Below are positions 30,869-60,261 of a DNA stretch of 64,000 nucleotides, in pieces; the first letter of the stretch is position 1, and each line of letters opens with the position of its first letter. The stretch comes from Antedon mediterranea (taxonomy: Eukaryota > Echinodermata > Crinoidea > Comatulida > Antedonidae). The DNA lies in NCBI RefSeq assembly GCF_964355755.1, contig NC_092671.1, positions 33,373,304 through 33,437,303 of the forward strand, read 5' to 3'. The notes under the pieces were generated by a model. That model saw only the letters and a program-made list of their open reading frames with translations, was not told where the DNA came from and did no database searches. The translations under genes were made by a program, and so were the position numbers.

Positions 30869-31239
30869 AATAGCCACCAAAGTAAATTTGATAAACCCGA
30901 TAAGGTTGGATGGGTCATTGGATTGGTCATGTGAGATATCTTGAAAATGTGGTAAAAATAAAAGACTTGAAACATTAACCAAAGAGCACAGCCTATCCTG
31001 GATAGGCAAGCATGTTTGTCACATACCTAAAGTGACAATTATTATGTAACACATTTTTAATTGCTTTGAAGAGGGTATAAAATACACTGTATTATCTTTT
31101 TCTCAATTTTCAACATTTCCGTAGCAAAGGGGACATCTCATCCTATAATACCATTATGTCATTTAAAGAGGATCATAATAATGTACAGAATGCTTGCTCT
31201 GAAAATGCCTGTGTGGTCTTATGTGGATTCAGAGTTTTG

Positions 31240-32345
31240 TTAAAATATAGGAGTAGGAGACAAGGAAGAATAGGAGGAAGGAGAGGGGAAGAGATGACAA
31301 GAGTTTTATTGTAGAATAGGAGGAGGAAAGTAAATCCAGAGTTTTGTTGTAGAATAGGAGGAGGAGGAAAATAAATCCCGAGTTCTGCTGTAGAATAGGA
31401 GGGTAAAGTAAATTCAGAGCATTGTTGTAGAATAGGAGGAGGGGGAAAGCGAATCCAGAGTTTTGTTGTAGAAAAGGAGGGGGGGGGGGGGGAAAGGAAA
31501 TCAAGAGTTTTGTTGTGGAATAAGATGAGTGGGAAAGGAAATCTAGAGTTTTGTTGTAGAATAGGAGGTGGGGAAAAGGAAATCCAGAGCTTTGTTGTAG
31601 AAAAGGTGGAGAGAAAAGGAAATCCAGAGTTTTGTTGTAGAAAAGGAGGAGGGGAAAGGAAATCCAGAGTTATGTTGTGGAATAGGAGGAGGGGGAAGGA
31701 AATCCAGAGCTTTGTTGTAGAATAGGTGGAGGGGGAAAGGAAATCCAGAGTTTTGTTGTAGAAAAGGAGGAGGGGAAAGGAAATCCAGAGTTATGTTGTA
31801 GAATAGGAGGAGGGGGAAGGAAATCCAGAGTTTTGTTGTGGAATAGGAGGAGGGGGAAGGAAATCCAGAGCTTTGTTGTGGAATAGGAGGAGGGGAAAGG
31901 AAATCCAGAGTTTTGTTGTAGAAAAGGAGGAGGGGAAAAGGAAATCCAGAGCTTTGTTGTAGAATGGGAGGAGAGAGAAAGGAAATCCAGAGTTTTGTTG
32001 TAGAAAAGGAGGAGGGGAAAGGAAATCCAGAGTTTTGTTGTGGAATAGGAGGAGGGAGAAGAAATCCAGAGCTTTGTTGTAGAATAGGAGGAGGTGGAAA
32101 GGAAATCCAGAGTTTTGTTGTGGAATAGGAGGAGGGAGAAGAAATCCAGAGCTTTGTTGTAGAATAGGAGGAGGGGGAAAGGAAATCCAGAGTTTTGTTG
32201 TAGAAAAGGAGGGGGGGGGGAGGAAGGAAATCTAGAGTTTTGTTGTGGAATAGGAGGAGGGGGAAGAAATCCAGAGCTTTGTTGTAGAATAGGAGGAGGG
32301 CAGGACATAGAGTTTTGTTGCAAAATAGGAGGAGGGAGATGAAGG
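31240..32345 (+). repeat. Purine-strand minisatellite, about 40-bp unit
   Basis: About 27 units of a 38-41 base motif GGAAATCCAGAGTTTTGTTG + TAGAATAGGAGGAGGGG, with A/G variants and G runs of up to about 15. The plus strand is strongly purine-rich (GGAGGAGGGGAAAGG), a composition able to form triplex or G-quadruplex structures. The minus strand stays open for 276 and 237 codons in two frames (repeated Pro/Leu/Phe/Ser). Since two overlapping frames are equally open and no promoter or splice signals are visible, coding is doubtful. Confidence 0.95.
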
Positions 32346-33170
32346 CTATATAAAATGGAGATTTGGTTTCCACTGCATAACAATTATAAAGTGGGGAAAA
32401 AACATCTTATAAACCAGACGGAGCACTAGCAATACACATAATTACTATTAATAGATATGCACACACTGTATAATTCACAGGGTGGAGGTTTAGACACCAT
32501 AAACTACCACCACCCCCTCTGTATCTGCCTCATGGAATTTTCTATATAATAAAGATGGCAAAAACATTTTAATGATATAGAGATCAGAGATGTGGGTGTC
32601 CTCGGAGTGTGAAACGTGCATGCCGTACTTCCACAATAAAAGTTCCTGTTAAAACGATTATAGATGAAAAAGATAAATACAGTTTAACCTAAGTCTGTAG
32701 ATACAGACAGGTATAGCTTACTCTACTATCAGGACAAGTTGTAATATGGGAAGATGGTTCACCAAGAACACATGGGCCACAAGTCATTTTAGAATTCGGT
32801 TTTTTTTTTTCGAGGGGAGGACGTCAGACACCTGCATTTTAGCTGACCATCATTTACTGCACCAAGTATAACATCAGTTCTTTGACTAAGGTGTATAAGG
32901 TTTTACTTAAATTCATTACAGGCATTAGTCATGTCAATCTTGTAATGATAATAAAAATTATCATAGCTTTTTTTTTAATTTCTACCAGACATGATGATGA
33001 CCTACCACCATGCCATGTATGTTACACTATCCTATCTATTGCAAGGCCAAGAATAACATATTAAACTTGAAATAATGAGAGAATATGCAAATTTTGCGTA
33101 GTCATACTTAACTATAAGTAAAGCAGGTGAATAAAAACAGACCATTACAAGAAATATCAGTTCTATTTAA
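32346..33170. other. Intergenic, nothing recognised
   Basis: Slightly GC-richer at 32580-32640, but no exon could be supported. Confidence 0.4.
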
Positions 33171-35127: not shown

Positions 35128-38100
35128 ATGCCTTACGAAGGAGAAGAAGGCTCCGACAGCATTCAGAAAGGATCCTTTGCCATATTTGTAGCTGAAGGTG
35201 ATGTACTTTTTAAGCAAGGAGAGTACAAGAAGGCTTTAGAAAGTTACAGTGAGGTGAGCTAGCTCAACACAAAAACAACAAATCGACGATTTACGGGGGG
35301 AGCACATGCGCAGCTGGCATGCCATTGGCATTGATTGAGTATCTGTCGATAAGGCTTGTTTGTTGGTCGTATAGGCTAGCTAGGTTAGGCCTAGCTAGGG
35401 CTTAGTCTAGGAAGGACCATTAATGGACGTGGCCTAGCTAGCCTAAATAAGTCCAGCCAGACAACCAAGCCGATCAAAAGATAGGCCTAGGCCCTAACTA
35501 GGCCTAGCTAGGGCCAGGCCTATATAAAAAGTGGGTCGTGCACATCCATACAGTTCCAGGACCAATGCCTAGCTAGCTAGCCTAAGTAGGCCTAGCTAGC
35601 CTAGCCTACCCTAGGCCCTTCCCTCTGGCCTACAGTAAATGCCTAGGCCTAGTTTTTGGTAAGAGCGTAGGCCTAGGTATATTATTACTAGCTATACGAG
35701 GCTAGCTAGCCTAGCCATCTAGGCTTCAGCATTGACTTTCATCTGTGTCTATGCAGGCATGCCTATTTTAAGACTGAGCTGAGTGAAAATCAGGCTAGGC
35801 CTACTACTAAAAGGTCTCCATCTGATTGGCCAAAAGTAGTAACTTGTCCTTGATTATTATGTAACAATTAACACTTTGAATAACAACTTCTGCTGGGCCA
35901 GTCTATTCATGATTAAAACTGTATAATAAAAACATTTTTATTAAACATAGCCTAGTATTGATATTGATTTTTAATAATTTGGTTCATTGCTAATTTAGTT
36001 GTGTAGGCTTATAATAAAATAGGGGTTAATTATTACATTGAATGATATTAATTTTAATAGCAAGGTAAACTATTCTTTAAAATGAATAACCCTATAATTC
36101 TATTTGGAATAATCCATTGTCATCCCATCATTGCCCCTTTGGGACTAGTTGTTTTATAAATAAATGCCAAACTAAACTAATTAAAATATTTTTACTGTTT
36201 GTTTACTTATGCATATAAATGTGAATACTCAAAAGCTTATTCATTGTAAAATGTGAAATTATATGTAATAAATGAATGACTATTATTATTATTATTAAAG
36301 CCATTCTGTATTTGCAATGAGGTACCTGTATAATAATGGAAAACTATCAATGGGTCTACTTACAAACTGCTAATACCTTTGTTAAAAGAACAATTGATTT
36401 CTGGATTAAGACAATTGTAAAGGTCTTTACAAAGGTCATGTCTCTCTAAAGTAGTTTCTATGGAGATATCAAGCTACACCTAGTGCATAGTGAACATAGA
36501 TTGTTAACTGTTTGCAAGAACCAGTATTAAACCTTAGATGATCTAAGGTAGAAACAGAGAAGGCTTAGCCAAGTTCATTTACTTTTGATGATCACTGTAT
36601 TTTGATAGTTGGTTACTGTGTAGGACTCCACTCTATATTGATAGGTGGTAATACTGTATTGATAGTCTTTACTGTGGATATAAATCATGGATGATTACAT
36701 TGATCCAGCAGTGGAAAGAGCAGAGCTCTTAAAGCTCTTACAGTCGTACATTGGTGAAGCTGAGGATCATATGCGGAAGAAAGAGTTTAGAAGAGCAAAA
36801 GAGGGTTATGATTTGGTAAAGATGGTTGGATCATTTTTGTTTTGATTGTTGTTTTTGGTTTTTCATGATGTTCTAGTTGCAAGTAGACTATTATAGCCTA
36901 TAAAGTAATGTTTGGAGTACAATAGTGTGATTTTTCAAAAGTTGACAATGCCTTACTATTCGGTTTTTAAATATATATATATCGAGGCTTCATTAATCAA
37001 TATTCTTCAATGTTTCGTTTTTCTTTAGGCTCTTGAAATTGAACCTTCTGATAAAAACTGTCTGGTAGCCCGGTCCAAGTGTCACTTACAGCTGGGAGAT
37101 GCAGTATCAGCTCTCAAAGATGCAGAGGCCTCGCTTACTGAGGATAAAGATTATCACAAGGTAAGTTAAGATTTATTATTTATTTATGCCATGAACATTT
37201 ACTGGTTCATAAAAAATAAGGTATATAAAAATAAAATGCATTGTTTTTAAAACTGTGCAAAGGGTTCAAATGGCACTGCAATGTTTAGGATACAAACAGG
37301 AGTCCCGTCCTTCATTGCTTAGTACAGTATTCTAATCAAACAGGAGTCCTGTCCTTCATTGGTTAGTACAGTATTCTAATCAAACAGGAGTCCCGTCCTT
37401 CATTGGTTAGTACAGTATTCTAATCAAACAGGAGGCCCGTCCTTCATTGGTTAGTACAGTATTCTAATCAAACAGGAGTCCAGTCCTTCATTGGTTAGTA
37501 AAGTATTCTAATCAAACAGGAGTCCAGTCCTTCATTGGTTAGTACAGTATTCTAATCAAACAGGAGTCCCGTCCTTCATTGGTTAGTACAGTATTCTAAT
37601 CAAACAGGAGTCCAGTCCTTCATTGGTTAGTAAAGTATTCTAATTGAACAGGAGTCCAGTCCTTCATTGGTTAGTACAGTATTCTAATCAAACAGGGGTC
37701 CCGTCCTTCATTGGTTAGTACAGTATTCTAATCAAACAGGAGTCCAGTCCTTCATTGGTTAGTACAGTATTCTAATCAAACAGGAGTCCAGTCCTTCATT
37801 GGTTAGTACAGTATTCTAATCAAACAGGAGTCCCGTCCTTCATTGGTTAGTACAGTATTCTAATCAAACAGGAGTCCCATCCTTCATTGGTTAGTACAGT
37901 ATTCTAATTAAGTGTTTTTTTCGGTTGTGCATGTCATACCACATAGTATTAAGTCTACCGATGTGTCCATGAATCTATTGGTTTTTTGTATCCACCCTTC
38001 TGAAAGGGTGTGGGTATTTGTTTCACAGCTGAAGTGAGTATTACTGATTCAATTGTAATTATTAAACGATTTCGATCCAAGTCGGCCCTAAACCGTCTCG

Positions 38101-41100
38101 GCCAAAGTCAAGTCGGCCCCAAGTCAAGTCGGCCCCAAGTCATCTCGGCCTCAAGTCAACTCGGCCTCAAGTCAACTCGGCCTCACGTCAACTCGGCCAA
38201 AAAATAATCGGTCAACTCGGCCCCGTTAAAGTATGGAATGCAAAAGGTACAAAGGAAGGGGATTGATAAAATAATATTTCTTCACATTTTATTACCTATG
38301 AATAATTCTGACTTTTAATGAATATTAATATTTAGACAATAATACTTTTAGCAAAAAAAAAAGGAAGGATTTCACCAATTTTTCTTTATTTACGTTTAAT
38401 AAAATTTCAAATTGCACAAATTGTTCTGAAATTGCGCATAACAAACAATTGATTAATAAGCTAGCATTCATACTATTATTAATGATTACAATATGAACAT
38501 TTGGATAATAAATAGGAACACATTGTAGGCATACACCCAATATGATGATGCACGTACGTGGGCGCGTATGTTCGTTCGTGCGTCAAAATTCAATAAACAT
38601 GTCCGATATGCGAGGACATATATTAGGTGTAATAAGATTGTTTGGTTGGATTGTTTGGTTGAATCATTGAGGTATTAATTAATGTTAATTCTATGGTTGA
38701 ATCACGTGTAGATTTCTTCAGTGTATGCATTTGATTAGGCGACAACATCTGAAACCAATTCGTAGCTGCACCTCCCTGTGCCTTTGGCAGCTATTTCGAT
38801 ATCTACAACTGCTACGTGTTTTCGCTGACCGGGGGATTCCCCTTTTTTAAAAACGCAAATCATGGACAAAAACGATATGTACAGTTAAGTACGATCATTT
38901 TTCTATGGCCAAATGGTGGAACCATGGAGCTATAATAGCTCCATGATGGTCTTCAATTTACTAAAATGTGGTACCTGCACGTGTTTTTGTAAAACGCGGG
39001 TACTTCTATTCATATCGGCAATGATATAATTTTTTATTTTCTTATTTCTTAATTGTTTTTAAAGAGTGGATAGTAATAATCATAATAATATTAAGCACTT
39101 TTTGCGTTCCATACTTTATTGTGGCTGAGTTGACCGATTAGTTTTTGGCCGAGTTGACGTGAGGCCGAGTTGACTTGAGGCCGAGTTGACTTGGGGCCGA
39201 CTTGACTTTGGCCGAGACGGTTTGGGGCCGACTTGACCTGCACCCTATTAAACACCTAATAACACTAAGAAATAAAGTAGTTTTTTCCCCCGACTTCTTT
39301 TGAATTATGTATTAAAACAATATTACTTATCATTTATCATTTACAGGGACTGTATCAGAAAGCCGAGGCTCTTTACCAGACCGGTGATTTTGAAATGGCC
39401 CTTGTTTTCTATCACCGTGGCAACAAACTCCGTCCTGAGCTACAAGAATTTCGACTAGGGATACAAAAAGCACAGGAAGCCATAGATAACTCAGTTGGCA
39501 GTAAGTCATGTGATAATTATTAACATCAGTGGCAATGCTAGTGGTGGATCTAGAGAGGTAGATCCCCCACCAGAGCCTAGTGGTGACTATGACAGGCTAT
39601 CATATCATTGGCAATGCTTAGTGGTAGATCTAAAGAAGTACATCCACCACCAGAGCATAGTGGTGACTATGATATAGGCTATCATATCATTGGCAATGCT
39701 AGTGGTGGATCTAAAGAAGTACATCCACCACCAGAGCCTAGTGGTGACTATGATATAGGCTATCATATCATTGGCAATGCTAGTGGTGGATCCACCACCA
39801 GAGCCTAGTGGTGACTATGATATAGTCTATCATATCATTGGCAATGCTAGTGGTGGATCTAAAGAAGTACATCCACCACCAGAGCCTAGTGGTGACTATG
39901 ATATAGGCTATCATATCATTGGCAATGCTAGTGGTGGATCTAAAGAAGTACATCCACCACCAGAGCCTAGTGGTGACTATGATATAGGCTATCATATCAT
40001 TGGCAATGCTATTGGTGGATCTAGAGAGGTAGATCCACCACCAGAGCATAGTGTTGACTATGATAGGCTATCATATAATTGGCAATGCAAGTGGTGGATC
40101 TAGAGAGTTTGATCCCTACCAGAGCGTAGTGTTGAGTATGATAGGCTATCATATCATTGGCAATGCTAGTGGTGGATTTAGAGAGGTAGATCCACCACCA
40201 GAGCCTAGTCGTAACTATGATAGGCTATCATATCATTGGCAATGCTAGTGGTGGATCTAGAGAGGTAGATCCCCTACCAGAGACTAGTGTTGACTATGAT
40301 AGGCTATCATATCATTGGCAATGCTAGTGGTGGATCTAAAGAAGTACATCCACCACCAGAGCCTCAGTGGCAATGCTAGTGGTGGATTTAGAGAAGTACA
40401 TCCAGAACCTGATGGTGACCATGCTATTGGGAATATTTTTAACAAAAAAGCAAAGAATTAAATTAGATTTTGACAAAGATTGTATTTTCACACATAGACA
40501 TAAACATGTGTCTCTTCATATTACTCCGACTCCACTCAAGGGTCATTAAGTATTTGACATAACCTCAACAAATAAAGTCATGCTATCACCAAAATCATAG
40601 CATGGTGAATCTAACATATTTCATTTTGGCCAGTGATTGTTTTAATTGTGGGGAGTAAAAATGTTTTACTAATTTTCTCTAAATTCAATTTCTCTAACTT
40701 GCCTGGATTAACCAAATATTAAAAAATATAATGATATTTAATGTCACCTGTACAGTCTGCTTTGCCTTCTTGATCAACCAATTTCTTTATTTATACAATA
40801 ACAATTTTTGTAATCTTTACGTATTTATCTACATACAGTATCTATAAATATAAGTTGTTCTGATATCTTCTTTATCAACAGGCCCATCAAAAGTGAAACT
40901 TGAAAACAAGGGTGATCTATCATTCTTCAGCAAACAAGATGAGGTAATAAGAACTAGAAAATAATTAGCTTTTGTACTGAAGATTATTACTTCTCATTTA
41001 AAATGAACTTTGAACCAGCAAGCATTCAATGTCAAATCTTGGTATCATCAAAACATAACGGTTTTCTAACATTTTATTTTGGTCATTTGAGTGAAAACAT

Positions 41101-44100
41101 ACTTGTGTGTAAACATGTGTTAAACTATCAATTCTTTCATGACCTAAAAAATAAAACAGCCACAGAAAAACATGTACAACTGTCCGTGCTGCATATAGGC
41201 CCCTGCTTAAGACTCCTAAGTGGCCCCAATGTTAGAGATCTTGGAGCATTTTTAGCCTTTTTCTAAATGCCTGTTGTTTCTTCTGGGCCATGCTCAGGTG
41301 CCCCTGTAAGCTCTGAGCCAGCAAGTGCTCATAGCTGTTATGCCACTGATTCCAACCAGATTCTTTTAAGCCTATTATGTTCTGATAGCGTCTGCCATGG
41401 ATAGTAGTAATTTAACCCTATTGATTTAGTAGTGAATAAAATTATTTGTAAAATTACTGTAGATGATAGTTACAGACTTACTAATTTAAAAATATTTGTA
41501 AATATAACATTAAGTCTAGAAATAAATTAGTAATTTTACCAAAAATAAAATTGTTCATCCCATGAGGATGGCAATCAGAATTGTAATATGTGATTAGAAT
41601 TTTTTACCAAGATGCCTTTGAACTTTGAAAGTTTTGTTTTAAGATATATTGTATTGTGTTAAAACTAAAACACTAGAAATCAGTCTCTTTGCACTTAAAG
41701 TGTATTTTTTAGTGCAAATACAGACTAAATTAATATCATGAATCTTACAATGACTGTACTCTATAATGAACAAAATCTATTAACATTTATAATTAGTAAT
41801 ACCATAGAGCACTATAATATCTCTATGGTAATATAGTATAGAAACACAATTTAAGGAGATACCATTTTTAATAGGGGTGTATTGTCCCCTGAATAGGGGT
41901 TGGCCATAGTAGTGTTAAATTGTTCACAATTGTTTCACAAAAGGGTTCCCCTTAATAGTTGTGTCGCCTGAATAAGGATTGGCTGTAGTTGTAAAACCTA
42001 TATTGCCCTTGTTTGTCTCATGGAAAGGGGTCTGTCTTCTAGGGGTGTTCTCAGAAGGCATCAACATAATAAATAAGACAATAATGGTAGGTGGTCAATG
42101 GCCACAAAAACACACACAATTACTGCCTAAAGCTCTGTCTGCACTATCAACTAGTTTGTCAAATAAAGTGTGATGTTCACAAATGTGGTAGTGATATGCC
42201 CAAATATGGTAGTGGTATGACATCATCATGTCCATACAGTGTATAGGCACATCACATTTTTTGTCAAATAAAAGTATGATGGTGTAGACATCTTTTTATA
42301 TTTTACTCAGGTCTTAAAATGAATCAATTTGATTATGATAATATAATAACTCATTCCTATTATTGTAGATGAAGACGACAAAGAAACAGCCTCGAATGGG
42401 GTACACCAAGCCAGGAACCAAACATGTTGACAACAAACAGAATAAACGTCCAGTGAGAGCAGAGCAATCTGACAAGGAGAAAGAGATCACAAAACAACTG
42501 TTAGGAGATCTGTACAAGGATCGACTTTATCTGGATAAGTTGCTGAAGGACGGCGGTGAGTTTAGTAGTGATGATAATCAACAATAAGCCAATATATTTA
42601 AAATTAATTTGTTGCCCAGCCAAAAGTTTCAGAATACTAATGTCAGCATTTAAAACTTCTAGGAATAAAAAACACATGATAAATGAAATAATTATAATTA
42701 TTGGAAATTTTGTAATATATGTATTATGATGTTCAATTTGTTTTTATGACCTATAGCAGTAATTTTAATCAATTTTATACATATTTTGTTAATTGAAACA
42801 CAATTAAAAAAAAAAAAAAGGAAACAAAAATTAACCTAGAAAAACACAACTAGTCTGACCATCGGTTCTACAGTACTAGCCATAGATAAAGGTACAATAA
42901 TATATTATTTCCAAAGTAAACTCACAATTTGAAAACATTTATTTACTCAGAAGAGATAAAATAGACTGAACCAAATCTAGGAAATATGAATCCTATTGAT
43001 GTTTCATTTACTGTATGCCATTAGTTTTCTGTAATCTCTGTCATCTAAGTTGAAGATTAGGCTTCTAACAGTTCTTGTGATTTCGCAAATTTAGACTTAA
43101 CAAGACCAACCACAGAGAGCGGTAACCAGATATATGATTTGGTGATGCAGGGATTACGATATTTAGATACACGAACAGAGTTCTGGCGTCAACAAAAGCC
43201 AATGTATGCACGCAATCGAGACAAAGCCGAGGCCAGCAAGGGAAGACGGGACAAGAGTAAAGTGCCAATGGATCCTGCAAAGTACATCCTTAAAAATCTG
43301 GAAGAAATTGATAATTGTAAGTAAGCAAATAAAAAGTAGTATTCAGGTTATCTTCTTCTATTTTAAGGAGCAAACTTCATAGTTGAAGGCTACTGCTCCA
43401 CTAAGGGTCCCATTGTGACATCGGCAGCCAACTACGGCGCCAATACGTCTGTGTTTGTGTATGAATGAACTATATACACCAGGGTAACCCCCTACTCGTC
43501 TCGAAAGATTTACTAGGTTCTTTAAAGTGCACATGAGCCAGATGTACACTGGACCTACGGTTTATAGTCCTCCGAGAAGACTTGTTCTACTACCAGAACC
43601 ATGGAGCGATTGAGCCTCGAACCCTTGCCAATGTTATGGCTATGGATTTCGGTTCCACTGTCTTAACCGCTCGGCCACACTCACACTCGGCCACACTGTA
43701 CATCAATACAACTCTTAAATAAAAAGAACAAAATTGTATAAAGAATGAAGTTATGTTACCAGTCCTTCTGCCCCTTCCTACTATACTGTGGTCATATGTT
43801 TGCCCACAAAGTAATTGGAATTTATGCTGAACTTCTTGGTGGACACACAACCTCTAGCTTGGCATTTATACCTCTTGACAACCAAGTTTGCATTGCTGGC
43901 TAGGGGTTACATTCAAGCTCACAAAAGCAGGATGTTGCTCACTAACACAAAGCTACTTCGATTATTAGATTATACTACATCATGTTCACAATACAGTACT
44001 ATACATTTTATTTACTTAATTGGCGCTTAAATCTTCTCCTTTCTGTTTTTTTCTAGCCTTGGCCAAGAACAAACCAAAGGATGCTCTTAGCCAGTCTAAA

Positions 44101-46767
44101 CGTGTCCTGAAGACGGTGGAAGGATGGAAAGAAAGTGACGTACCTGATAAAGATGACTATCTTGCCAATTTACATAGTTGTATTGGTAATGCACACTTGG
44201 ACCTAGGAAACATGGAGTTTGCATTGAAGCATCATAATATTGATTATGATTTGTGCCAGTCAAGGTAAATCAAAATATTCTTCATCCAGATATTAGTATA
44301 CAGGCACAGTGCCGAGAGTAAATAAATATTTGCATATGCGGTTGTCTTCTGTGCCTAGACGGAGCAATGATCCATTCATTGTAATCAATGAGCACTATAA
44401 AAGAACTAGGAATATCAGGTTTCAAGAATGTATCAATTTGTTTTTGAAATTGAAAGATGTTAGGAGAAAGAGGTGACTTTCAGTTCTGTAAATGTGTGTG
44501 TATTTTATTATTTTGACTATGTTGACTTTGTTTTCTGTCACCATGTTCGACTGTGTGCCTATAGATACACAGTTGACAGTGCCGACTAAAACTGATGAAT
44601 TTACATTTACAATAGGGAAAGTGAGGATGGACGATCAAGAGCATTGGACAATCTCGGCAGAGTCCATGCCCGTATCGGTCAGTTCACAGAAGCAGTCAAG
44701 TATTGGAAAGAGAAGTTACCAATGGTCAAGTCGGCGTTAGAGGCAACCTGGTTGTACCACGAGATTGGCCGCTGCCACTTGGAGCTTGGTGAATATCAAG
44801 AGGCTCATGATTTTGGTGAGAAGAGTTTGAAGGCAGCACAAGAAGCTGGAGATGATGTCTGGCAGTTAAATGCCAGTGTTCTTATTGCCCAATCAGAGGG
44901 TGCGTACATTTTAGTTTCTTCATGTGTTTTCCTTATTTTAACCAGTGTACACAGTTGTGTTTGACTCTACTATGTACCCATTTATACACGAAACGCAAAC
45001 ATAAGTAAACGTGTCTTGCCTATTAGAACATAATGCACCACAATGCGATGAGCCCACAATCAAACACCTAACACATGCTGCATCACTGCCCTGCACTTTG
45101 TCCTGTACTTTATAACAAACTGCAAACAGACTTTGAGGCTAAAAAAGGACACTTATGCTTTCCTTCATCAATTCTAGTCTACTTGTATTTTTGTTTGTGG
45201 GTGATTATTTTTAGATTTTCTTTTACTCTACAGTAAAACTTGGAGATTTACATGAAGCTATTGAGTCATTTGAGCGGTCACTCGAAATGGCAAAGATCCA
45301 AGGGGATTTCCCAGCTCAAAAAGCAATTTCAAAAGCTTTAGAAGATCTTAATGAAAAGATCGTTAAAGGACTGAAAGGAGAGGATGAGGACGAGGAAGAA
45401 CAAAATGAAAACAAAAATGATAAAAAGAGTGATGACGAAAAAGATAATATAGAAGAGAAGGAAGATGCAATGAAGGATTATAAAAGTGAAGATGAAGACA
45501 GCAAAAAGGACAAAGATAAAGAAAAGGAGGAACATAATGATTCGTCATCAGGTATTATAGTTTATTTTTACTTGTTTTTGAATGTTTTTTGCATGTAAAC
45601 TAGCATTTTCTTAGACAGTGCCTAGCTATTTATTAGCCCTTACCATGATATATCATGTTTTATTTAAACTCATTATTATTTTTTAAAACAGTGTGTTAAT
45701 AATCTTGCAATTAATCCCTGCGTATACCCGGTACTACCGGGTATAAACAGACGTCGTTGAAATACGTATACACGGTAATACCGGGTATGGGAAAAACAAT
45801 GATTTGATCGTATTTGCCTATAATATATAGCACCCTCTATATTTTTTCGATGAACTTTAATATTTATTCAAGTCATTACAATTCCAGCAAAAAAAACGGC
45901 CCTCTATAGTTGTATTATCGTCTTGAAAATAATGCGCCCTCTATAGTTAATTAATTAATTATATATAGTATAGTATATAATAGTATTTCTATCTTGGAAA
46001 GTTGTCTTGAGTAGCATAATGGCGACCATTTTTAAAGCAACAAAAATTTACCAGCCCCAATAGGGCAACATCGTGTTTATCACAACACGCAAAAAAAAAA
46101 TTCTGAAACAATAGTTATTTTTTGTACTATAGTGAATTTTTGGAAACTGTCATTATTTTCACGATTTTACCCCAAAACTTTGATTTGTGCATAATTTTTA
46201 TAAAACAATAAAAATAATTCAATTTTTTTAAATATTTTTATTTGTTATACGTATCTTCATCAATATCCAGTTGGAAAAACGTATTCCATAAAAATTTCTT
46301 ATAGAAAATATAGTTTTTATCATTGATTCGATAAAAAACACGAAATCCAAAATACCTGTAATGACGTCACATGACGTCATCAATATGCAAATTACTTTTT
46401 TGTTATACCTAACTGTAGACTAACCCTTTGCCCATCACCCACCACAAAAATAATTACACAATTATCTCAATTTGTATTATTTTGCAATTTATTAAAATAT
46501 CATGTTTTTTTAAAAATATATATTACGCACAGAGGTGGGAATAATGCTTCGCAGTGAAAGGGTTAATCATCGTAACCATTTAATTGTTCATATTATAAAA
46601 ATTGAATTAAATTTTTTTCAGATGAGAGTGTCAAGTCAGACAAGTCCCATAACTCGCACAAATCTAGCAAATCGGACAAATCAGACAAGTCCGACAAATC
46701 AGACAAGTCTGACAAATCAGACAAGTCAAAACACTCGGAGGGCAAAAAAGATGTAGACGAAACATAA
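35128..46767 (+). CDS. ODAD4: Outer dynein arm-docking complex subunit 4 (TTC25)
   Basis: A TPR protein that helps dock outer dynein arms on ciliary doublet microtubules. Coding exons: 35128-35253, 37029-37160, 39347-39500, 40882-40943, 42369-42555, 43095-43316, 44057-44264, 44616-44899, 45234-45551, 46622-46767. All junctions are GT-AG and in phase, giving 612 residues (human is about 670). Family-typical peptides include KNCLVARSKC (exon 2), YQTGDFEMALVFYHRG and IQKAQEAIDNSVG (exon 3), LENKGDLSF (exon 4), FWRQQKPMYAR (exon 6), LYHEIGRCHLELG and WQLNASVLIAQ (exon 8). TPRs fall roughly at residues 15-120 and 290-490. The last 120 residues are charged and low-complexity (Glu/Asp/Lys, then Ser-Asp-Lys repeats) and replace the different human tail. 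Poly(A) signals follow at 46792 and 46806. Confidence 0.95.
35340..35810. repeat. CTAGGC/CTAGCT-rich tract in ODAD4 intron 1
   Basis: Dense irregular repetition of TAGGCCTAGCTAGCC-type words without a fixed period. Smaller tracts of the same words occur near 5280-5370, 20505-20600 and 23640-24000, mostly near gene starts or GC-richer patches. Confidence 0.7.
36687..36815 (+). CDS. ODAD4: Alternative first coding exon of ODAD4
   Basis: Within intron 1, an ATG at 36687 opens 43 codons (MDDYIDPAVERAELLKLLQS...KEGYDL) that end in phase 0 at a donor TTG|GTAAAG. Main exon 1 also ends in phase 0, so either can splice to exon 2 at 37029. The two ends align as one TPR helix pair: AEGDVLFKQGEYKKALESYSE (main) and GEAEDHMRKKEFRRAKEGYDL (alternative; shown as aligned blocks). 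An in-frame TAA sits at 36681-36683, so this exon cannot be read through from upstream and must supply its own start. The predicted isoform has 613 residues. A weak X-box-like GTTTCTATGGAGAT lies about 230 bp upstream. Inference: a second promoter, or a tandem exon duplication. Confidence 0.75.
37285..37909. repeat. 44-bp minisatellite in ODAD4 intron 2
   Basis: About 14 head-to-tail units of 44 bases: CAAACAGGAGTCCCGTCC + TTCATTGGTTAGTACAG + TATTCTAAT, with only a few variable sites (CCCGT/CCAGT/CCCAT). High similarity between units points to recent expansion. Each unit contains an inverted CCAAT pentamer (ATTGG). Confidence 0.95.
38060..39253. mobile_element. Foldback DNA element with 8-bp target-site duplication, ODAD4 intron 2
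   Basis: The element spans 38068-39245 between identical octamers TATTAAAC (38060-38067 and 39246-39253). Its inverted termini are about 140-170 bp and are built of short tandem words, CAAGTCGGCCCC and CAACTCGGCCTC, ending at GTATGGAAC on the left and its inverse at 39105 on the right. The 870-bp interior has no transposase, but carries a CG-rich GCACGTACGTGGGCGCGTATG patch. The 8-bp duplication fits a hAT-type origin; the repetitive termini resemble foldback elements. Confidence 0.85.
39520..40400. repeat. ~81-bp minisatellite in ODAD4 intron 3
   Basis: About eleven units of roughly 81 bases: ATCATTGGCAATGCTAGTGG, TGGATCTAAAGAAGTACATCC, ACCACCAGAGCCTAGTGGTG, ACTATGATATAGGCTATC (joined in that order), with some shortened units. 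Each unit holds an inner inverted repeat (GTGGTGGAT...ATCCACCAC). It starts 20 bases after the exon 3 donor. Open frames through it are due to the near multiple-of-three period. Confidence 0.9.
41190..41347. repeat. Decayed relative of the CCAGTGGCG MITE
   Basis: Shares GTGCCCCTGTAAGCTCTGAG and CTCATAGCTGTTATGCCACTG with 4120-4213. The opposite end is not recognisable. In ODAD4 intron 4. Confidence 0.45.
41868..41995. repeat. Dispersed GGGGACAC-type repeat, copy 4
   Basis: CCCCTGAATAGGGGTTGGCC and CCTGAATAAGGATTGGCTG match the family of 1257-1425. In ODAD4 intron 4. Confidence 0.45.
42129..42296. mobile_element. MITE, AAGCTCTGTCTACACTATC family, copy 2
   Basis: Left end AAAGCTCTGTCTGCACTATC, right end an eroded inverse (GATGGTGTAGACATCTTT). 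The interior ATGCCCAAATATGGTAGTGG matches copy 1. In ODAD4 intron 4, 72 bp before exon 5. Confidence 0.7.
43363..43690 (-). repeat. tRNA(Ser/Leu)-like SINE, full-length copy
   Basis: On the minus strand the head reads GTGGCCGAGCGGTTAAGACA, an A box of the long-variable-arm tRNA type (Ser/Leu). About 45 bases later comes GGGTTCGAGGCTC, a B box. The body follows (TCCATGGTTCTGGTAGTAG, GGTCCAGTGTAC, GAGTAGGGGGTTACCC, GGGACCCTTAGTGGAG). Other copies: 57650-57940 (full), 51018-51160 (body only), 59733-59790 (head only). In ODAD4 intron 6, antisense to the gene. Confidence 0.8.
45711..46566. mobile_element. Possible piggyBac-like element in ODAD4 intron 9
   Basis: Bounded by TTAA (45711-45714 and 46563-46566) with CCCTGCG-like left and inverted CCCTTTCACTGCG right termini. 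The interior has CCGGTACTACCGGG-type short palindromes near the left end and TGACGTCA motifs (46363-46380). The terminal match is short, so the call is tentative. Confidence 0.35.
46640..46731 (+). repeat. Coding tandem repeat for Ser-Asp-Lys tail of ODAD4
   Basis: GACAAATCAGACAAGTC-type 9-base units in exon 10 encode about eight SDK tripeptides (KSDKSDKSDK...). Pure in-frame repetition close to the stop codon predicts length variation between alleles. Confidence 0.85.
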
Positions 46768-49035: not shown

Positions 49036-50299
49036 ATAGTAAGATACAAAACCAAAAACAGGTATATAGTTTACTTGGTATATTTTAATTTCCTATCTAT
49101 ATCCTAACAACTATTACTCATTACATCTATACTAATTACACATTGTGTTAACTAATATCCCTCTCTACCCTAAGGTCCAAACGACCTTCTTCTCTTAGGT
49201 TCACAAGGTTAGTATGCTATCTGACACTATTTCTTTTGAACCTAAATTTACATTTATATTTTAAAACATTGAATGAATGAATAATCAATGCTTTGCATAC
49301 AAATAAAATAAATCTATAATTAAAATTACTGTTTTTCCCATGTGATGCATTTAGCCAATGCACCCCATCATTGACTATTTTTAGGTAATACTTTTTTTTT
49401 TAAACTTATTTTTGCACATCATGTCAATTGTATTAATACTGATTGCCTTTACATCTTCTTTCATTAGTGTTAATTAATTTAAATAAATTAATTTAAATAA
49501 TTACCACAATCATTATTGTTTTTATAGCACCATTGAAAAACAACAGGGGTTTGTAAATGAAAATTGTTCTGTTTCTCCACAGCAATTGATTATACAGTAG
49601 AACTCTTGAACCTTCATTAAAGGGGGCACATTCAGGACCCAAAAAATGTTCCTCAAAAGTACCACTATTTCACAGGAAAGTTTTATGTATCTTATAATAG
49701 CTGAAATGTTAACTTGGAGATACCCAAACAATTTAGGATGAAAACTTATGATAAACAGAATATTTCTATAGCAGTCAAATAAAAAATATAATAAACATCT
49801 AATACATACATACTACAAAAAAGATATATAAGAATATTAGATATTATTATATGTTAAAGTAATAGATATTAAATTATACATTAGACTGTAAACTAACATT
49901 AAAATGATTTCTTCAATAAAGTTAAAATATATCAATAGTGTACATGATATTAAAAATATACAAATCATGTGAATTGAGAAAGGGTTCATATAACACATAA
50001 TGTCATATTCACCACTTTCATCCTGACCCACCCTGTGATTGTTATTATGGGATAGGATGATTTTTGGATGGTGACATTTAACTGCATGATAACTTAACCT
50101 CATTTTACTAACATGCAGATTATTCAACATTCTAATAAAATATATTCACTTCTAGTAATAAATATATATTTTTTTGCAACTCTTTTCGTTTTTGTTGCCA
50201 TGCAAAACATCATTTTCGTTTTCGTTATTGTATTCGTAAGGTTGTAAAATCTCCCTATTTTTTATGCTATAAATCTAAAAACAAGATTCATATGATACC
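49036..50299. other. AT-rich intergenic
   Basis: No exon recognised. A trace of the GGGGACAC-type repeat may lie near 49605-49690. Confidence 0.4.
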
Positions 50300-50890
50300 A
50301 CTGTCATTCAATCTGTCAAACAATCAATCATTCAATCAATCATTCAATCAATTACTCAACCAATCAATCATTCAACCAATCATTCAATCAATTACTCAAC
50401 CAATCAATCATTCAACCAATCATTCAATCAATTACTCAACCAATCAATCACTCAACCAATCAACCATTAAACCAATCATTCAATCAATCATTCAACCAAT
50501 CATTAATTAACTCAATCAATCACTTAACCAGTCAATCACTTAACCAATCAATCAATCAATCACTCAATCAATTATTCAGTCAATTCTTCAATCAATCACT
50601 CAACCAATCATTCATTCAATCACTCAATCAATCAATCAATCAATTATTCAGTCAATCATTCATTCAATCAATCATTCATTCAATCAATCAATATCTCAAC
50701 CAGTCAATCACTCAATAAATCAATCATTCAATCAATCAATTATTCAATCAATCACTCAACCAATCATTCAATCAATCACTCAATCAATCATTCAATCAAT
50801 CACTCAACCAATCATTCAATCAATCACTCAATCATTCCATCACTTAATTAATCAATCAATCAACAATTTAATAAATCATTCAATAACACT
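50300..50890. repeat. (CAATCAATCATT)-type array
   Basis: About 590 bases of 4-base periodic sequence made of CAAT, CATT, CACT and CAAC words, with a looser 12-24 base higher order. The plus frame 50292-50510 (Asn/Gln/Ser/Ile) is an artefact of the array. It lies beyond the PRMT2 stop codon on its downstream side. Confidence 0.9.
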
Positions 50891-51017
50891 CTAATAATTA
50901 TATTAATATTCACCTCTTTTAATAAATATTTCAATAGATTGCAAAATAGATTGATAAATTAATCGATCACTTACTAACTGACCATCTTAAAAATTGCTAT
51001 GCACTAATACTTTAAAA

Positions 51018-51224: not shown

Positions 51225-60261
<9,037 letters not shown>

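Follow-up and report, generated by a model that had tools for sequence, protein, structure and literature searches.

A predicted alternative first coding exon within intron 1 of ODAD4 in Antedon mediterranea

ODAD4 (TTC25) of Antedon mediterranea is predicted to have two first coding exons, the main one and a second, inner exon located within intron 1, which would give the protein another N-terminal segment. From the sequence, we consider that the inner exon is probably a real alternative first coding exon. Its composition is coding-like, its last residues fall in the register of a tetratricopeptide repeat (TPR) and its phase matches that of exon 2. The initial annotation had proposed this arrangement, and the proposal is supported by the amino-acid and codon make-up of the exon, its TPR register, its frame, its position and the stop encountered when the two exons are joined through the best upstream acceptor. 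The segment encoded by the inner exon would comprise a lead of about 20 residues, a different helix A and the start of helix B of the first TPR; it would be spliced to the same exon 2 as the main exon, and the transcript would begin either at a start of its own or with an untranslated leader.

The ODAD4 locus and its two first coding exons

The 64-kb window (the whole stretch of DNA analysed, 64,000 nucleotides) contains the sole ODAD4 gene seen in the genome (18 contigs, 354 Mb). Ten exons make up the gene model, the AG/GT boundaries of which were set by hand. The main first exon gives an open protein of 612 residues, and the inner exon joined to the same downstream exons gives 613 uninterrupted residues (Table 1). 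Either exon would give an intact protein because both feed phase 0 into exon 2. The coordinates of the pair were confirmed: both exons open with ATG and reach a GT in phase 0, ahead of the ALEIEPSDKNC that begins exon 2, so that the inner exon has what is expected of one of a pair of alternative first exons, an ATG of its own and a phase matching the shared exon. Its translation includes the peptide LLQSYIGEAEDHMR. The inner ATG lies in a favourable start context (A at -3, G at +4) and is preceded by the in-frame TAA that had been annotated six bases 5' of it; with this stop ahead of the ATG, use of the inner exon requires either a separate transcript start or a leader that is not translated.

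Table 1. Coordinates of the predicted ODAD4 features within the window
Feature	Position	Strand	Remarks
RFX/X-box-like site GTTGCTATGGTAAA	35001..35014		11/14 against GTTGCCATGGCAAC; 113 bases 5' of main ATG
Main first coding exon	35128..35253	+	42 codons; phase 0; donor GAG/GTGAGC
Possible untranslated leader of inner exon	36645..36686	+	if candidate acceptor ATATTGATAG/GTGG is used
In-frame TAA upstream of inner ATG	36681..36683	+	begins six bases before ATG
Inner exon, predicted alternative first coding exon	36687..36815	+	43 codons, MDDYIDPAVERAELLKLLQSYIGEAEDHMRKKEFRRAKEGYDL; phase 0; weak donor TTG/GTAAAG
Shared exon 2	37029..37160	+	132 nt; phase 0-0; begins ALEIEPSDKNC
Exon 3	39347..39500	+	set by hand, AG/GT and frame
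Exon 4	40882..40943	+	set by hand, AG/GT and frame
Exon 5	42369..42555	+	set by hand, AG/GT and frame
Exon 6	43095..43316	+	set by hand, AG/GT and frame
Exon 7	44057..44264	+	set by hand, AG/GT and frame
Exon 8	44616..44899	+	set by hand, AG/GT and frame
Exon 9	45234..45551	+	set by hand, AG/GT and frame
Exon 10, with stop TAA	46622..46767	+	set by hand, AG/GT and frame

The identity of the gene is supported by comparison with the solved ODAD4 chains 8j07 and 9cpc, which we take to be mammalian, and 7rro. The inner form (its first 507 residues searched) matched 8j07 with 504 bits and 7rro with 503, over query residues 14 to 506 or 507; across the three chains the scores ranged from 490 to 504 bits and the alignments began at query residue 14 or 16. 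The similarity extends along the conserved length of ODAD4. Chain 7rro is bovine ODAD4 (PMC10139691). Exon 2 also has the length and the 0-0 phase of its human counterpart, the skipping of which is reported to shorten an RT-PCR product in frame from 396 to 264 bp, that is by 132 bp or 44 residues (PMC12468610). From this shared in-frame length we conclude that the exon 2 junction is old.

Searching the animal's own genome with the inner exon plus exon 2 returned two matches in the window and a single one elsewhere (E 6.56). With a query of 379 residues from the remaining ODAD4 exons there were 15 matches, seven in the window and eight elsewhere, the best of the latter lying on contig C3 (46.6 bits, 32% identity); no other ODAD4-like locus was seen with this query, and a paralogue elsewhere in the genome was rejected, with the proviso that only top candidates are scored by the search and that gaps and withheld stretches are treated as N, so that a paralogue could be missed. 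At the DNA level the region 36300–37000 matched only itself (very common words being skipped), with no second copy, and an origin of the inner exon from a repeat or transposon was rejected on this basis. No relatives were confirmed in viral contigs.

Other features of the window were recorded alongside the gene model. ODAD4 intron 2 holds a tandem array at 37293–37908 (a 44-nt unit repeated 14 times, 96% matches), and intron 3 holds another at 39525–40370 (a unit of about 80 nt, 10.7 copies), whose long open frames (HIIGNASGGS...PPPEPSGDYD) seem to be a product of the repeat. Long open frames of a repeated unit (FSTTKLWISFP...) at 31173–32406 on the minus strand are attributed to the repeat because several frames are open at once. 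At 50139–50894 on the plus strand there are further open frames due to repeats, with many Asn, Gln, Ser and Ile residues (NQSINQSFNQ); and an open frame at 59090–59683 on the minus strand, with a stretch that looks SH3-like by eye, is probably part of another gene.

Coding composition and TPR register of the inner exon

An open frame of 43 codons following an ATG is not rare here, as 110 of the 1,791 noncoding ATGs in the window have one, and the inner exon on its own matched no Pfam family. Searched alone against solved chains, it found neither ODAD4 nor any TPR protein, its best match being a PadR regulator (13.3 bits, E 0.93). These observations speak for a frame that is open in intron 1 by chance. 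Against this, no decoy equalled the inner exon in codon score or in TPR register, as set out below; on this sequence evidence the exon is unlikely to be a chance frame, and as an overall explanation we give chance almost no credence.

Codon scores were calculated with a coding model of 2,517 codons from TPR-coding loci and the ODAD4 exons, from which both first exons, though not exon 2, were left out. In frame, the inner exon scored 0.47 bits per codon (main exon 1, 0.40; exon 2, 0.42), while its other two frames had negative scores and contained one and six stops. Open 43-codon windows of noncoding DNA (499) and ATG-started open 43-codon frames (110) all fell below the inner exon. A coding model built only from loci outside the window gave 0.40, 0.38 and 0.35 for the inner exon, main exon and exon 2 respectively, and with it the score of the first 19 codons was reached by none of 487 ATG-started decoys. 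For these three decoy sets, the noncoding model derived largely from the decoys' own DNA; when noncoding model and decoys were drawn from separate stretches the inner exon scored 0.39, again unmatched (0/299). All decoys came from this window, partly from both strands, and the sets of 499 and 299 include overlapping windows.

Synonymous codon choice taken alone gave a different picture. The inner exon scored -0.016, with 99 of the 299 decoys at least as high, by comparison with 0.006 for exon 2, 0.125 for main exon 1 and a decoy mean of -0.055. The inner exon is thus unremarkable in this respect, and the codon signal is therefore one of amino-acid make-up; the measure has little power, however, because exon 2, a real exon, does not stand out either.

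The initial annotation had described a TPR-helix-like segment preceding exon 2, and its register supports this. With exon 2 fixing the register, we scored the last 21 residues of the inner exon using a profile of 87 TPR segments from 31 loci of the same genome (some loci overlap, and these are not 87 independent repeats). The segment scored 5.9, whereas decoy frames that run up to a GT (1,366, known plus-strand exons being left out) reached 0.98 at most. Six other offsets of the exon, all in one direction, scored from -5.6 to -20.6, and when its 21 residues were shuffled 100,000 times, 0.2% of the permutations reached 5.9. Together with exon 2 the inner exon would thus make up the first TPR of ODAD4, the repeat continuing in register over the junction. 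The main exon scored 25.0, making the inner exon the weaker TPR. The codon and TPR tests overlap, as the coding training set is TPR-rich.

The inner exon was also searched together with exon 2. The Pfam family TPR_2 matched this combination with 27.8 bits (a whole-protein score over two stretches, with a cut-off of 27), by comparison with 14.9 bits for exon 2 alone and 44.0 for the main form; the best stretch, residues 21–51, spans the junction. TPR_1 gave 16.9 bits, under its cut-off of 27.8. Among solved chains the three best matches of the combination were all ODAD4 (51.0, 48.9 and 44.2 bits), to which exon 2 alone gave 41.7, 39.7 and 38.2 bits; the inner exon thus adds 6 to 9 bits to a match carried mostly by exon 2. 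The main form matched these three ODAD4 chains with 73.2, 70.0 and 68.0 bits, although engineered TPR arrays ranked above them. AlphaFold2 models from single sequences predicted one unbroken helix (residues 7–41) for the isolated inner exon and a helix-turn-helix for the isolated main exon. The unbroken helix counts against the inner exon as part of a TPR, but such models, made without neighbouring exons or alignments, carry little weight.

The suggestion that the two first exons arose by an old exon duplication fared less well. They share 5 of 24 residues, and their BLOSUM62 similarity in register is 29, compared with a decoy maximum of 9. For comparison with ordinary repeats we used 40 generic TPR helices, namely those of the 87 segments that are gap-free in the first 21 columns, duplicates included. 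The inner and main exons score 25 against each other; from the side of the inner exon, the main exon outscores all 40 of the generic helices, whereas from the side of the main exon 12 of the 40 do as well as the inner exon, with at least 25. Against the corresponding segment of 8j07 the main exon scored 51, which no generic helix reached (0/40), and by this comparison it is clearly the counterpart of the N-terminus, or first exon, of ODAD4 as known from solved chains. The score of the inner exon against that segment was 14, a value that 8 of the 40 helices reached. An old duplication is a possible origin, plausible by position.

Splice and promoter signals of the two first exons

Both first exons had been described as ending at good donors. 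This held for the main exon, with a score of 5.57, but not for the inner exon, which scored 0.68; exon 2 scored 8.73 (general donor frequencies were used for the matrix). A score equal to that of the inner donor or better is found for 7.9% of the 3,455 plus-strand GTs in the window. Three further donors of the gene model likewise lack G at +5 (GTAATA, GTAAAT and GTATTA), but these follow AG.

Upstream of the inner ATG, the best candidate acceptor lies at 36645, with a score of 3.3 (97th percentile of 3,490 AGs) that falls in the range of the nine acceptors of the gene model; acceptor scores were calculated with home-made weights. Joining exon 1 to this acceptor leads to a stop after five codons, and by that route the two first exons are therefore alternatives to each other. 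The same acceptor and stop could instead mark a poison exon, in which an upstream acceptor such as 36645 places the inner exon in the main transcript and decay triggered by the stop tunes the level of ODAD4. An exon of this kind would need neither a coding-like composition from its own ATG nor a TPR register, both of which the inner exon has, and we regard this reading as quite improbable.

A further possibility is that part of the exon, 36744–36815, is an in-frame cassette that adds 24 residues between exons 1 and 2 in one mRNA. TTACAG stands just 5' of 36744 and the joined frame is open; the acceptor there is weak, however (-1.6, 80th percentile), the 19 codons upstream of 36744 are also coding-like, and 24 additional residues would be expected to disrupt the 34-residue spacing of the TPRs. 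A cassette therefore seems highly improbable to us.

The site upstream of the main exon that resembles an RFX/X-box motif was found with a general consensus, and is one of three matches at 11/14 in the 64 kb. A stricter X-box pattern (GTTNCY N0-3 RRNRAC) misses it and has four matches in the window, none of them near either first exon. Upstream of the inner exon the best RFX-like match was 9/14, with 0.73 expected by chance, and an RFX site as the inner promoter was rejected since this match is at chance level. The difference between the two exons in this respect suggests, at the sequence level, that they may be under different control.

The weak donor, the weaker TPR, the lack of any promoter mark found at the inner exon and its lack of a synonymous codon signal would all be compatible with a relic, that is, a former alternative start whose transcription has been lost or is mere noise. 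The exon has nonetheless kept 43 codons free of stops and frameshifts and an exon-like amino-acid make-up, though few of its residues match the main exon, and we consider a relic unlikely. A real alternative first coding exon is the reading we prefer.

Relation to known isoforms and possible roles in different cilia

The initial annotation knew of no earlier description of this arrangement, and this agrees with the openly licensed PMC literature, in which a search for ODAD4/TTC25 with an alternative first exon found no description in the text available; the phrase there concerns DNAH5 (PMC11344339). A predicted inner isoform may already be present in some annotation record. For human ODAD4 a transcript with an alternative exon 3 is mentioned (PMC12468610), whereas an alternative first exon is predicted here. 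A single alternative first exon is reported for human DNAH5 (PMC11344339), likewise a gene of the outer dynein arm, although it encodes a dynein heavy chain. Human UGT1A, for which thirteen first exons are reported to be homologous and to have a promoter each (PMC9013439), similarly joins several first exons to common downstream exons to give different N-termini; ODAD4 here would have just two, with a likeness at the level of the TPR.

Expression of the inner exon would, we infer, involve transcription from a separate promoter in another cell type or at another stage. The altered first TPR of the ODAD4–ARMC4 solenoid could then affect how the protein contacts a partner, is transported or docks in axonemes of that type. 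Use of the two forms in different ciliated cell types would fit, by analogy, with reports on docking subunits that vary with the type of cilium (PMC9349282, PMC11779644, PMC4427456). In mammalian sperm CCDC63 takes the place of ODAD1 (PMC11779644); Drosophila Ttc25 is reported in chordotonal neurons, with Ttc25like as a possible distant counterpart in sperm (PMC9349282); and docking-complex components are used differently in the cilia and sperm flagella of Ciona (PMC4427456). The mammalian and fly pairs are separate genes, by contrast with the one gene and two predicted starts described here. Isoforms from one gene are reported for Drosophila CG17150/DNAH3, which has cell-type-specific forms in chordotonal neurons and in sperm through alternative splicing (PMC6367277), although this too is a dynein heavy chain and not a docking subunit. 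Two tables of the same 2019 fly survey differ on CG13502, which is chordotonal-only in one of them, whereas the other adds testis (PMC6367277).

Why the axonemes of epithelial cilia and sperm use different versions of a few proteins has been called unclear in a recent structural study (PMC11779644). We tentatively raise the possibility, which we hold to be less than even, that one ODAD4 gene gives rise to two dynein-docking complexes, for example in epithelial cilia and in sperm flagella, through a choice of first exon that rebuilds the first TPR; promoter choice would then do what mammals and flies achieve by gene duplication for other docking subunits. If so, the isoforms would differ in the first TPR only, and differences in partners, transport or docking would map to about 43 residues, which would offer a clean test. 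It would also mean that surveys of ciliary parts made at the level of the gene can miss diversity at the level of the isoform.
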